From positions 1 to 26,382 of the IMG/VR virus record IMGVR_UViG_3300005827_000060: a stretch of DNA of 26,382 bases. One strand, written 5' to 3'. Origin of the DNA: a virus. Below are positions 5,985 to 19,271 of this stretch, piece by piece (position 1 is the stretch's first letter; each line of letters opens with the position of its first letter). The translations under genes and the position numbers were made by a program. A model generated the notes under the pieces. The model ran no database searches. It was not told the DNA's origin and was given only the letters and a program-made list of their open reading frames with translations.

Positions 5985-6033
5985 CAAAAAAGACCGATGC
6001 CGCGCAAGCCCAAAGGCTTGCGCGGCATCGGTC
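5985..6033 (-). terminator. Terminator hairpin abutting the protease gene start (copy A)
   Basis: A perfect 19 bp stem (5992-6010 with 6015-6033) with a 4-base loop is followed on the minus strand by TTTTTTG. The protease ATG lies only about 10 bases after the stem, and no Shine-Dalgarno site is visible between them. It can end transcripts from the genes upstream, or act as a regulated attenuator for the protease operon. A second copy exists at 11421-11468. Confidence 0.75.
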
Positions 6034-11420: not shown

Positions 11421-11468
11421 AATAAAAACCGATGCCACCCTGCGCGGCAAACGCAGGGTGGCATCGGT
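11421..11468 (-). terminator. Terminator hairpin abutting the coiled-coil gene start (copy B)
   Basis: A perfect 17 bp stem (11428-11444 with 11452-11468) with a 7-base loop is followed on the minus strand by TTTTTATTT and then the gene's ATG. The base of the stem (ACCGATGCC/GGCATCGGT) is the same as in copy A. The upper stem has a different sequence but is still fully paired, which is covariation and supports a functional RNA structure. Confidence 0.75.
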
Positions 11469-11537: not shown

Positions 11538-11762
11538 TCAATGCGCGGATAGTGACGCGCCCGCTGTTGGGGCGGGCGCGGGTTTCTGCTGAGTGCTGGG
11601 TCGGGGCCTTCGCATTTGTTCAACGCGCCTAACGATGGTCACCTTTTCAACAATGGCCTGCTGCTGCAAGTCGTAGGTGACCTCGGTCACACCTTCGCGG
11701 GCCAACTGGCGCAAGCGCAGCATTAGATTTATTTCGTGCTCTTCTAAGACCAGCTGATCCAT
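11538..11762 (-). CDS. Small hypothetical protein
   Basis: This 74-residue protein starts at ATG 11762. The first 50 residues are strongly charged and probably form one helix pair (EEHEINLMLRLRQLAREG, then a beta-type YDLQQQAIVEKVTIVRR). The tail is Pro/Ala rich. I recognise no family. It lies between the secreted Thr/Pro-rich protein and the duplicated leader element, and is probably in the same transcript as the former. Confidence 0.5.
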   Translation of the reverse strand: MDQLVLEEHEINLMLRLRQLAREGVTEVTYDLQQQAIVEKVTIVRRVEQMRRPRPSTQQKPAPAPTAGASLSAH

Positions 11763-12439: not shown

Positions 12440-12441
12440 GC

Positions 12442-12652
12442 GTGACTGATCCAGGCGCGTGACCCACCGGCAAGTCACAGTCTGAGCGCGGTCACATCGG
12501 CCCGTGACCGCACCGGCAGCGGGCGGCGATGATCTATCACGGCCTCGCCTTCCCCTGTGACCCACCGTCAGGTCACGCGCTGCACAGCGTCACGCCCGAA
12601 CGTGACCGCCCAGGAGTTGCTTATAGCCTGGTCAGTCACACCAGCCTGTGAC
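12442..12652. repeat. GTGAC/GTCAC array 1
   Basis: Eleven copies of GTGAC or GTCAC occur in 211 bases: 12442, 12459, 12474, 12491, 12504, 12557, 12572, 12589, 12602, 12635 and 12648. Chance would give about half a copy. The spacings 15-17-13 recur: the four sites from 12459 to 12504 repeat exactly 98 bases later from 12557 to 12602, while the bases between them vary. No plausible gene lies here. Related segments occur at 24864-25129 and, inverted, at 26155-26311. Confidence 0.85.
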
Positions 12653-12818
12653 GCTACCGGCATCAGCCAGCGGTACTCTGTTACACCACAATTAAATGAC
12701 CGCGCCGGGAGTGCTAGTTGTGCCCGGCGCGGATAAAACAAACAAAAAATTTTAAGTTTTTTGTGTCTTGGGGATGGGCCGCTATTTAATACGGCGCTGG
12801 AGTTATTCTATGCTGATG
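12653..12818. other. AT-rich spacer with inverted repeats inside the repeat block
   Basis: This segment separates two clusters of the pentamer array. A 10 bp perfect hairpin (12700-12709 with 12723-12732, 13-base loop) is followed by an AT-rich inverted repeat, ACAAAAAA and TTTTTTGT at 12742-12749 and 12757-12764. No gene is supported. An easily melted AT-rich stretch beside short iterated sites resembles the layout of iteron-type origins. Confidence 0.5.
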
Positions 12819-13158
12819 GTCACGCTTGTCAATGTGACGAACCGGCCCGCGCTTGGCGCTGCGCCGTTACAGCTCCAGGGTGTTGAGAGCGAGCACGGTC
12901 ACAGTGACGGCCTGCGTGCGTTGCTGCCGGACGCGGTCACACCCGGCGGGAACATCCCCAGCAGTGGAGATGCTGGCCACAGCCACGGGCGGCGCTGGGT
13001 ACCGGTGGGCAACGGCGCGGGCAGCGATGTTCCATGCCTATCGTGGGCATCCCCGCCCGCGCAGATGCAGGCCCGCATGGTGGCCACGCTGCCCGCAGTG
13101 ATGGGCGCGCACACCTGGCTACATCCACAAGGGTGGCGGGGCTTCAGCGCAGCGGCCG
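12819..13158. repeat. Second part of array 1 and gene-free sequence
   Basis: GTGAC/GTCAC occur at 12819, 12834, 12898, 12904, 12936. At 12898-12908 two form the palindrome GTCACAGTGAC, also present at 24864-24874. The stretch 12834-12957 is homologous to 25061-25145. From about 12960 to 13158 I see only GC-rich sequence without a credible gene. Long open frames across it have no protein-like character. Confidence 0.65.
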
Positions 13159-16213: not shown

Positions 16214-16275
16214 AGTATAGCCCGTATTTTGGTTTTGTCAATACAGTTGACAAAACCAAAATACGGGTGTATCTT
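16214..16275. promoter_or_regulatory. Divergent promoters in a 21+21 bp perfect palindrome
   Basis: Arms 16221-16241 and 16247-16267 are perfect inverted repeats around 5 bases. Each arm supplies a -35 TTGACA. Rightward, TATCTT (16270-16275) is 17 bases from TTGACA, and ATG 16282 follows after 6 bases. Leftward, TATACT (16219-16214) is 16 bases from TTGACA, and an ATG follows after 4 bases. Both transcripts would be leaderless or nearly so. The palindrome is a likely operator for a regulator controlling both directions. Confidence 0.75.
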
Positions 16276-16720: not shown

Positions 16721-17755
16721 TTATTCTACCTCCAAATCCGGCAAACTTACATGCCGCGAGTGTGCCCGCTTCAGCTCCTTATCTGCAAAGATGCCATAGT
16801 GCGCGTTAGTCACATCCACGCTACTGTGGCCCAGCAGTTGGGAAACGTGCGCGAGCGAGGCCCCATCCATCAGCATCCTGCGCGCCGCGCCATGCCGCCA
16901 ATTGTGCGGGTTCCACCCCGCAACAACCCCAGCGGCCTTAGCCAATCGCTTTAGCACCTGGTAAATGCCAGAGGTGCGCAGTCCCCCCTTCAACCCCACG
17001 AACACCGCATCCCCCCGGCCTTTTGGCCGCACCTTTAGCCAAGCCTCCATCGCCTCCACAGCGGCGGGAGCCAGGTACACCACCCTCTCCCTCTCGCCTT
17101 TCTCGCGCACAATCGCCCGGCCCCGCTTCAGCATCAAGTCGCCGACTCTCAGCCCAGCGGCCCCGGCACACCGGCACGCCGTTGACGCCAAAAAAAACAC
17201 CAGCGCCAAATCACGCGGCGACGCCCGCGCGGCCTGCATCATCCGCGCCAGGTCATCATCTGCAATCCCCTTACAGCCCACCTTCGGCAACTTCGGCAAC
17301 TCCAGCCGCAGTGCCGGGTTGTTGCTCAAAACCCCCTCCTCACAAAGCCACCTAAACAACCGCCGCGCTGCGCGGCAATAGCCGTGCAGCGTCCAGGGTG
17401 AAAGTCCCCCCTCGACCACCCCGCGCGTGGGGTGGGTAGTGTAACGCGCTTGTTTGTCTTGCAAGTCCGCTCGCCAGCGCCGCAAGGCACAAGTGTCCAC
17501 ACTTCCCACCTCCACATCTCCCAAAAACTCCACCAGCGAGTTGAGCCTGCGCTCATACCAGCGCCGGGTGGTCTCTGCCTTCGCCCCCATCAGCGAAAGC
17601 AAAAAACCAGCAACCGCACAACGGATTTTCACCTCGGCCTCCCCGTGGCCGCTCCACCGCTTTAAACGCCAAAGCGGCCACGACTCTAGTTTGAAAGAGT
17701 CGCGCCGCTTCTCTAGTGCGCGTTCCCCCGGTTCCGTTGCGGCGATGGCTTGCAC
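16721..17755 (-). CDS. int: Tyrosine recombinase / integrase
   Basis: This 344-residue protein starts at GTG 17755. The N-terminal core-binding domain covers about residues 45-140. The catalytic domain has Arg195 (ACRCAGAAGLRVGDL), a Lys near 219, His284-x-x-Arg287 (HNWRHGAARR), His310 (LLGHSSVDVT) and the nucleophile Tyr320 (NAHYGIFA). It would insert the phage DNA into a tRNA-Met gene whose 3' half lies just after its stop. It is read towards the att site and divergent from the rightward early genes. Confidence 0.9.
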   Translation of the reverse strand: MQAIAATEPGERALEKRRDSFKLESWPLWRLKRWSGHGEAEVKIRCAVAGFLLSLMGAKAETTRRWYERRLNSLVEFLGDVEVGSVDTCALRRWRADLQDKQARYTTHPTRGVVEGGLSPWTLHGYCRAARRLFRWLCEEGVLSNNPALRLELPKLPKVGCKGIADDDLARMMQAARASPRDLALVFFLASTACRCAGAAGLRVGDLMLKRGRAIVREKGERERVVYLAPAAVEAMEAWLKVRPKGRGDAVFVGLKGGLRTSGIYQVLKRLAKAAGVVAGWNPHNWRHGAARRMLMDGASLAHVSQLLGHSSVDVTNAHYGIFADKELKRAHSRHVSLPDLEVE

Positions 17756-18425: not shown

Positions 18426-19271
18426 ATGACAACCACCAACCACGAAGCACTCATGCGCATTCGCGCAATTAAACCAGGCCCGCTTTACCTGCTGATCATC
18501 ATGCGCGTGATGGGCCTGATGCCGCCGCCCAACTTGGTGGCTGCTGACGTACAGCAGATAGCGGCGGCGGCTGGGTGGACAGACACCGCAACCAAAAGCC
18601 ACCTGGCGCAGCTCTTATCCATGCTCTATGTAGGGCGCTTGCACTACAGAGCGTGGTACATCACCGACGCGGGCATAAGTCTTGTAAACCCTGAAAGCAC
18701 AAAAAATGTGCTTTCAGCCCTAGTTAGTAGTAGTAGTGAATCTATTAATCAATTAAGTTTATTAACTACTACTACTAACTCTGAAAGCACAAAAAATGTG
18801 CTTTCAGAAAACTCGCAACAGCCCGCGCTCCTAGCCCCCGCGTTAGACCCCAACGTGGCCCGCTTGGCCGCGCTTCTGCATAACGAACATGGCACCGCCA
18901 TGCGCTACGCACTCCAAGCGTGCCAAAACGCCCTGACCGATGGCAGTCCACTACTGACCGAACTGTGCATTTTGTATTGGTCTGAATACCTGATTGAAAA
19001 CTCAAACGGGGTCCGCAACCGCGCGGCTTTGGTCTCGCACTCAGTAGGCCGTGGGGAATTCCCCGCTAACTGGTGGATTGAGAAATACAGGCCCCAGTTG
19101 GCCGATGCCGAACTTTACGAGGATGACTACGCAAAGCTCACAGTGCGCCAGAAGCGCATTGTGGATTTGGAATTCGAGCGTAAGGCGCTGGCCGTGGTGG
19201 TCGAAGAAAACGTCACTACGCCAACGGCACAACTTACTACACACACGCACCCATCTGATACCCATGCCTAA
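18426..19271 (+). CDS. Putative replication initiator (lambda O-like layout)
   Basis: I place the start at ATG 18426. The 281-residue protein has a probable winged helix at residues about 15-85 (DVQQIAAAAGWTDTATKSHL, ITDAG), a Ser/Thr linker at 88-130 with the octapeptide ESTKNVLS twice, and a helical C-terminal domain. The linker is encoded by AT-rich nested palindromes, as expected if an origin lies inside the gene, the plan of lambda O. It would bind the origin and recruit the host helicase. The role is inferred from layout. No family match is certain. Confidence 0.5.
   Translation: MTTTNHEALMRIRAIKPGPLYLLIIMRVMGLMPPPNLVAADVQQIAAAAGWTDTATKSHLAQLLSMLYVGRLHYRAWYITDAGISLVNPESTKNVLSALVSSSSESINQLSLLTTTTNSESTKNVLSENSQQPALLAPALDPNVARLAALLHNEHGTAMRYALQACQNALTDGSPLLTELCILYWSEYLIENSNGVRNRAALVSHSVGRGEFPANWWIEKYRPQLADAELYEDDYAKLTVRQKRIVDLEFERKALAVVVEENVTTPTAQLTTHTHPSDTHA
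18691..18807. repeat. Nested palindromes: candidate replication origin
   Basis: A 27-base palindromic repeat (CTGAAAGCAC, 7 bases, GTGCTTTCAG) occurs at 18691-18717 and again, identical, at 18781-18807, exactly 90 bases apart. Between them a 16 bp perfect inverted repeat, AGTTAGTAGTAGTAGT (18722-18737) and its complement (18765-18780), flanks an AT-rich 27-base centre. Base composition contrasts sharply with the GC-rich surroundings. It looks like an iteron origin embedded in the initiator gene. A transcriptional operator is the alternative. Confidence 0.65.

Follow-up and report, generated by a model that had tools for sequence, protein, structure and literature searches.

The gene at positions 18426-19271 (plus strand) of the window, by which we mean the whole 26,382-base stretch of viral DNA analysed here, raises the question of what a nested palindromic element is doing inside a coding sequence. 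The element is 117 bases long (18691-18807) and consists of two identical palindromes enclosing a central inverted repeat, all in frame with the gene. As the earlier note on this DNA had described, the palindromes are 27 bases long and start 90 nt, or 30 codons, apart. The left copy (CTGAAAGCACA-AAAAA-TGTGCTTTCAG, 18691-18717) has perfect 11-nt arms around a 5-nt run of A (11+5+11), and the right copy (18781-18807) is the same 27-mer; both are candidate binding sites for the initiator that we propose the gene to encode. Between them lies the 16+16 bp inverted repeat that had also been reported, with a left arm AGTTAGTAGTAGTAGT (18722-18737) and a right arm ACTACTACTACTAACT (18765-18780) that are perfect complements, built on (AGT)4/(ACT)4, that is, on TAG triplets. 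The 27-nt centre that separates the arms (18738-18764) is A or T at 23 of 27 positions (85%) and is the proposed unwinding region. No strand is assigned to any of these five parts. The nesting had been called symmetric, and this is nearly but not exactly so, as a 4-nt gap lies between the left palindrome and the left arm, while the right arm directly adjoins the right palindrome (0 nt), leaving the centres of the palindrome pair and of the inverted repeat ~2 nt apart. No further palindrome of this sequence was found in the 26,382-base window, even when up to 3 mismatches were tolerated (shuffled sequence gives an expectation of 0), and the element is present as a single copy in the IMG/VR record.

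The stretch of protein encoded by the element, PESTKNVLSALVSSSSESINQLSLLTTTTNSESTKNVLSE, is itself repetitive, and we used a chance test in which the protein was held fixed and synonymous codons were drawn according to the window's own usage (20,000 draws). The palindromic arms match at 22 of 22 positions, compared to a simulated mean of 11.3 and a maximum of 21, and were never reproduced in the 20,000 draws. The A/T fraction of the element is 0.68, against 0.473 +/- 0.025 following synonymous resampling, an excess that speaks for the centre as an unwinding region. The log10 probability of the codon choice is -32, against -19.8 +/- 1.8 in the simulations, with the element using codons that are rare elsewhere, where AGT makes up 7% of Ser and ACT 10% of Thr codons. 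The palindromes, the A/T content and the rare codon use all lie outside the simulated range, which argues that selection acts on the DNA; the element is not a product of chance. The element folds with a z-score of -11 as DNA and of -12 as RNA, and Rfam and tRNA scans of the window returned no matches.

The open reading frame starts at the ATG at 18426 and encodes a protein of 281 amino acids, for which we built an AlphaFold2 model on an alignment of seven sequences. The model contains a winged helix (wHTH) domain at residues ~10-88 (18453-18689, plus strand; pLDDT 81-92), a linker predicted to be disordered (pLDDT <50 at residues 95-138) and a helical C-terminal domain of five helices at residues ~141-226 (18846-19103, plus strand; pLDDT about 70-81). 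The element encodes residues 89-128, which places it, as had been suggested, in the linker of a winged-helix protein, between the DNA-binding and C-terminal domains. Fold neighbours of the winged helix, at Z 11-12, are MarR-like transcription regulators and TubR, a plasmid centromere binder. Fold searches with the whole protein were filled by matches to the winged helix; their lists held no RepA_N, DnaD or lambda O structure, and in these wHTH-dominated searches the C-terminal domain matched no known replication domain. The protein has no PHROG match up to E 0.1, and Pfam gave a weak match to MIF4G alone, with no RepA_N domain (PF06970) in the scan up to E 0.1; two homologs, L006 and L110, gave weak IclR/MarR matches.

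Relatives of the protein were difficult to find by sequence. A tblastn search of 50,697 phage records and a close search of viral contigs both returned none, while an alignment search identified two full-length relatives in viral contigs, L006 and L011, both already known from the DNA pattern. The earlier note had proposed looking for the element in relatives carrying the same initiator, and it is present in both of these, each of which was first found via the element. The alignment of the wider phage family held no block of columns conserved enough for scanning.

We observed the same layout, again in this linker, in about 14 further phage contigs. Seven of these, obtained by searching 2.9 million viral contigs for AGT and ACT triplet runs with a gap, carry the arms in the order (AGT)n..(ACT)n (L006, L011, L035, L110, L117, L148 and L153). 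Reversed-arm and GAT/ATC patterns were run as negative controls and gave 5 and 2 further members of the family, respectively: L225, L232, L235, L238 and L239 have (ACT)n..(AGT)n arms, read as TTTT...VVVV, with paired palindromes, and L241 and L242 have a (GAT)n..(ATC)n version. With a profile of the first set we recovered four of the five reversed-order proteins, L232, L239, L225 and L238 (E 2e-24 to 3e-12, on a set of 13 proteins); its match to L242 is weak. Since the controls matched family members, the AGT-to-ACT order and the TAG triplet were dropped as universal signals.

The flanking palindromes are specific to the locus, being CGAGGGGGAAAATTTCCCCCTCG in L006, TTGGAGGAAAAAAACCTCCAA in L011 and CGAAGTTTCGCAGAGAGAAACTTCG in L148, with a related palindrome common to L110, L117 and L153. 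The palindrome of the GAT/ATC set, CGCACAAAATGTGCG (L241, L242), resembles the GCACA...TGTGC half-sites of the window. Within a genome the flanking words match over 27 nt (window), 29 nt (L011), 25 nt (L148), 18 nt (L035) and 14 nt (L153), and over only 8-9 nt in L006, L110 and L117, against a mean of 6.9 between genomes. In the (AGT)n..(ACT)n set the left arm is read as SSSS, and the right arm as TTTT in the window, TTT in L117 and L035, and LLLL in L006, L011 and L110. The L110 and L117 proteins are 62% identical, yet their right arms lie in different frames. These differences in frame and peptide among relatives indicate that the symmetry of the DNA is conserved and not the peptide, so the Ser/Thr linker that had been described earlier does not survive as a conserved trait. 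What the family conserves is an arrangement, a palindrome, a triplet-run inverted repeat and the same palindrome again, situated between the winged helix and the C-terminal domain; the palindrome sequence, the triplet order, the triplet itself and the peptide all vary. The centres in GC-rich phages are about 60-69% A/T, which counts against reading them as the melting centre of an origin. Two observations stand beside this set. L223 and L236 encode a pair of HTH proteins that are 66% identical to each other; their arms follow the (ACT)n...(AGT)n order, read as TTTT...SSSS, and there are no clear paired palindromes. In L148 two perfect DnaA boxes (TTATCCACA) and one near-match adjoin the element (11664-11693), the only relative with these.

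A second group of relatives is found on plasmids. Using the pattern (AGT)4-N14-44-(ACT)4 and one genome per species, we obtained 17 sites in 84,980 species genomes, of which 15 lie in frame in wHTH genes with coding, iteron-like tandem repeats and 2 are plain triplet runs. These plasmid-type proteins occur in Bdellovibrionota, Gammaproteobacteria, Desulfobacterota and PVC, and their element has an (AGT)n-A/T-(ACT)n core with flanking iterons. Similarity between the plasmid-type and phage-type proteins is confined to 42 HTH columns, so evidence from the plasmids transfers to the phages by analogy. Two circular P. salmonis replicons, p5PS2 (L215) and unnamed3 (L222), have the head and tail genes of a phage as well as parA and a plasmid-type gene of this class, and look like phage-plasmids. 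A search at the protein level in 290 genomes from a single phylum, in which the DNA element was not directly selected for, gave homologs in 18 genomes, with the core at 55-62% of the open reading frame in most of the full-length proteins. The core in the plasmid set is often degenerate, for example TAGTAGTAATAGTA/TACTATTACTACTA; L195 and L204 have neither core nor linker iterons, and L165 also lacks the core. The real triplet order was found at 4 places in 2 genomes of the 290-genome sample and the reversed order at 0 sites. Covariation of the arms is mixed, with compensated changes in L180, L194, L197 and L199 and one-sided changes in L191/L208, L196 and L201, and strict pairing of the arms in the plasmid set is thus not proven by these sequences.

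The plasmid relatives also contain a natural exchange. Between the L003 and L018 genes, identity is 97-100% at the start, about 50-57% across the iterons and winged helix, and 95-100% after the core as far as the stop codon, the break falling at the core. L192 and L209, from one genome, have a similar pattern as judged by eye. The iterons and the winged helix therefore change as one cassette and the core and C-terminal domain remain, which is expected if the winged helix reads the iterons. Natural chimeras such as pPR9 are known to exchange the N-terminal domain plus the origin in the pSK41 family (PMC5703833), and the L003/L018 swap repeats this pattern.

The plasmids additionally provide a link to replication. 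On complete plasmids the gene lies directly after parA and is annotated as hypothetical. On the 11.9-kb plasmid pBdHAGR4, whose copy has the left arm and A/T stretch only, its product is the sole replication (Rep) candidate, with no other initiator recognisable. The authors of a study of three P. salmonis plasmids found an origin or iterons on none of them, and no initiator on pPSLF89-2 and -3 (PMC6963756). Of six complete plasmids, four (136, 48, 12 and 32 kb) have the minimum of their cumulative GC skew at 1.0, 1.6, 1.6 and 1.9 kb from the gene, respectively; on the remaining two it lies 16 kb away (a 109-kb plasmid) and far away (an IS-rich plasmid). Over the six plasmids, one of which does not fit, this proximity has a combined p of 0.024. 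The result supports an origin and falls short of proof, as gene direction partly sets the skew and partition genes also sit near origins.

Within the window, a ParB-like protein distinct from the proposed initiator is encoded at 19510-21462 (plus strand; HTH_ParB, PF17762, E 2.7e-10; PHROG ParB-like), a ParM-like actin partition protein at 22776-23816 (plus strand; phrog_691 partition protein, E 1.4e-12; NCBIfam ParM, E 1e-4, below its cut-off) and a tyrosine integrase at 16721-17755 (minus strand; PF00589, E 6.2e-27). These three genes give the record the look of a temperate phage or phage-plasmid. Among those proteins of the window that were scanned, we recognised no further candidate for replication. 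Half-sites GTGACC/GGTCACG cluster in three intergenic places (12440-12820, 24830-25080 and 26155-26306), taking the form GTGAC-N10-GTCAC at 12459, 12557 and 24914, and are a candidate centromere or operator for the ParB-like protein. A perfect 21+21 inverted repeat (CCCGTATTTTGGTTTTGTCAA / TTGACAAAACCAAAATACGGG, 5-nt loop, 16221-16267) to the left of the integrase gene may be an operator, terminator or attachment site, and perfect inverted repeats of 19+19 bp (5992-6033) and 17+17 bp (11428-11468) close to gene ends are probably terminators.

We consider it likely, from sequence and its comparison across relatives, that a temperate phage or phage-plasmid uses the element as its origin of replication, situated within the linker of the gene for its initiator; the replication function is one that we infer. 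Each palindrome would be bound by a dimer of the winged-helix domain, and the proteins on both sides could bend or strain the central inverted repeat. The A/T-rich middle would then melt, possibly aided by extrusion of the triplet-repeat arms, and the C-terminal domain would recruit a host helicase loader, helicase or primase to the opened region, as in pSK41 Rep and lambda O. An origin inside the initiator gene would keep the binding domain and its sites together, so that a new specificity can move as one cassette, as seen directly in the plasmid relatives.

Why a winged-helix gene should carry such sites could also be answered by partition. The chief rival, which we think unlikely, is that the element is a parS- or tubC-like centromere in the gene of its winged-helix centromere-binding protein. 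The fold is TubR-like, partition genes lie nearby in the window, and ParA is directly upstream of all the plasmid-type relatives checked, as would be expected for a partition partner. Against this, the window encodes ParB-like and ParM-like proteins apart from the winged-helix protein, the L006 phage has a separate ParB_N-like protein, and the GTGACC/GGTCACG clusters are the more usual kind of centromere candidate. Partition needs neither an A/T-rich melting centre nor a second folded domain, and a centromere would leave pBdHAGR4 without any recognisable initiator. A role in regulation, in which the palindromes serve the protein as operators for repressing its own operon, or an mRNA structure controls expression, would suit the MarR-like fold, palindromes of the MarR operator type and a very strong RNA hairpin. 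We regard it as improbable, since the site is absent upstream of the gene and elsewhere in the window, a two-sided layout in mid-gene is ill-suited to an operator, and the plasmid relatives keep the core only, with direct iterons that give no hairpin.

Linkers tolerate insertions, and slippage expands triplet runs. The element could on these general grounds be a selfish palindromic element inserted in frame, like the Rickettsia RPE, or low-complexity linker repeats that have drifted, but there is one copy in the record, its position is fixed relative to both domains across divergent homologs, the arms stay complementary despite changing triplets and reading frames, and the flanking sites are genome-specific pairs. 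We consider this explanation very improbable. The chance that the inverted arms belong to an attP or other recombination site for the tyrosine integrase, whose gene (16721-17755) lies ~1 kb away, appears slimmer still, as the same core in the plasmid relatives adjoins parA and not an integrase, and integration at a site in a coding linker would break the gene.

If the origin reading is right, the pairing of palindromes or iterons around a triplet-run inverted repeat in a wHTH gene would be a signature that locates an origin and its initiator at once. For most environmental phages and many plasmids no origin is known, and the signature would apply to a large number of phages and plasmids that lack annotation, among them circular plasmids of Bdellovibrio and Piscirickettsia where the gene is listed as hypothetical. 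The exchange of cassettes around a constant core provides a clean natural experiment. More tentatively, the triplet-run inverted repeat around an A/T centre may be a portable origin-opening module, common to distantly related initiators with exchangeable binding domains and sites in phages and plasmids of several phyla. Such a module might act through dyad symmetry, by paired opening or a cruciform, or through a host protein that reads single-stranded triplets, a mechanism undescribed for any known origin; we regard this proposal as possible, if on balance doubtful.

How does the element compare with known systems? The triplet runs adjoining an A/T-rich stretch are reminiscent of the DnaA-trio, and plasmid variants such as TAGTAGTAATAGTA resemble degenerate trios. 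No DnaA box (<=1 mismatch) lies within 400 bp of the element in the window, however, the 3' end of the trio strand in the window lies at the A/T centre, a polarity with respect to the flanking sites opposite to that described previously (PMC8287927), and the phage relatives use either triplet order, or even GAT/ATC. The trio reading was lowered on these grounds, and for the same reasons a structural role for the inverted repeat, in easy opening and possibly as a cruciform, is more likely than trio binding. With TubR-tubC the locus has in common a winged-helix protein, repeated sites and a partition neighbourhood, and differs in the separate ParB and ParM of the window, the inverted-repeat core and the extra C-terminal domain. 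The ParM-like neighbour is a candidate for the partner NTPase of such a system, but a separate ParB-like protein is present too.

The analogy drawn earlier with lambda, where ori, made up of iterons and an A/T tract, lies in the middle of O (PMC7466680), is correct. As judged here from sequence and model, both have an origin or origin candidate in mid-gene, in the coding linker between a DNA-binding domain and a C-terminal domain, with protein-binding repeats and an A/T-rich region. In lambda the four to six iterons form a single array with the A/T tract to one side, whereas here two palindromes lie one on each side of the core, and lambda O has no detectable sequence relation to the window protein in Pfam and PHROG scans up to E 0.1. 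The RepA_N initiator of pSK41 is a closer analogue still. Its winged-helix N-terminal domain binds Rep boxes located centrally within rep, the origin-coded part forms the linker and the C-terminal domain contacts primase (PMC5703833); the window gene likewise combines a winged helix, a central candidate origin and a separate C-terminal domain. The differences are that the window protein has no RepA_N match and that the two-sided triplet-run layout is undescribed for pSK41. As neither a RepA_N domain nor a relation to O was found, and given the two-sided layout, the locus is filed as a member of neither class. The earlier statement, to the effect that an origin of this nested form is not known, agrees with the open-access literature, in which we found no description of such a two-sided layout, and has to be amended in that the layout is not a one-off and recurs widely. 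The nested-origin principle is already known from lambda and pSK41; the new and interesting part is the stereotyped triplet inverted repeat common to distantly related initiators.
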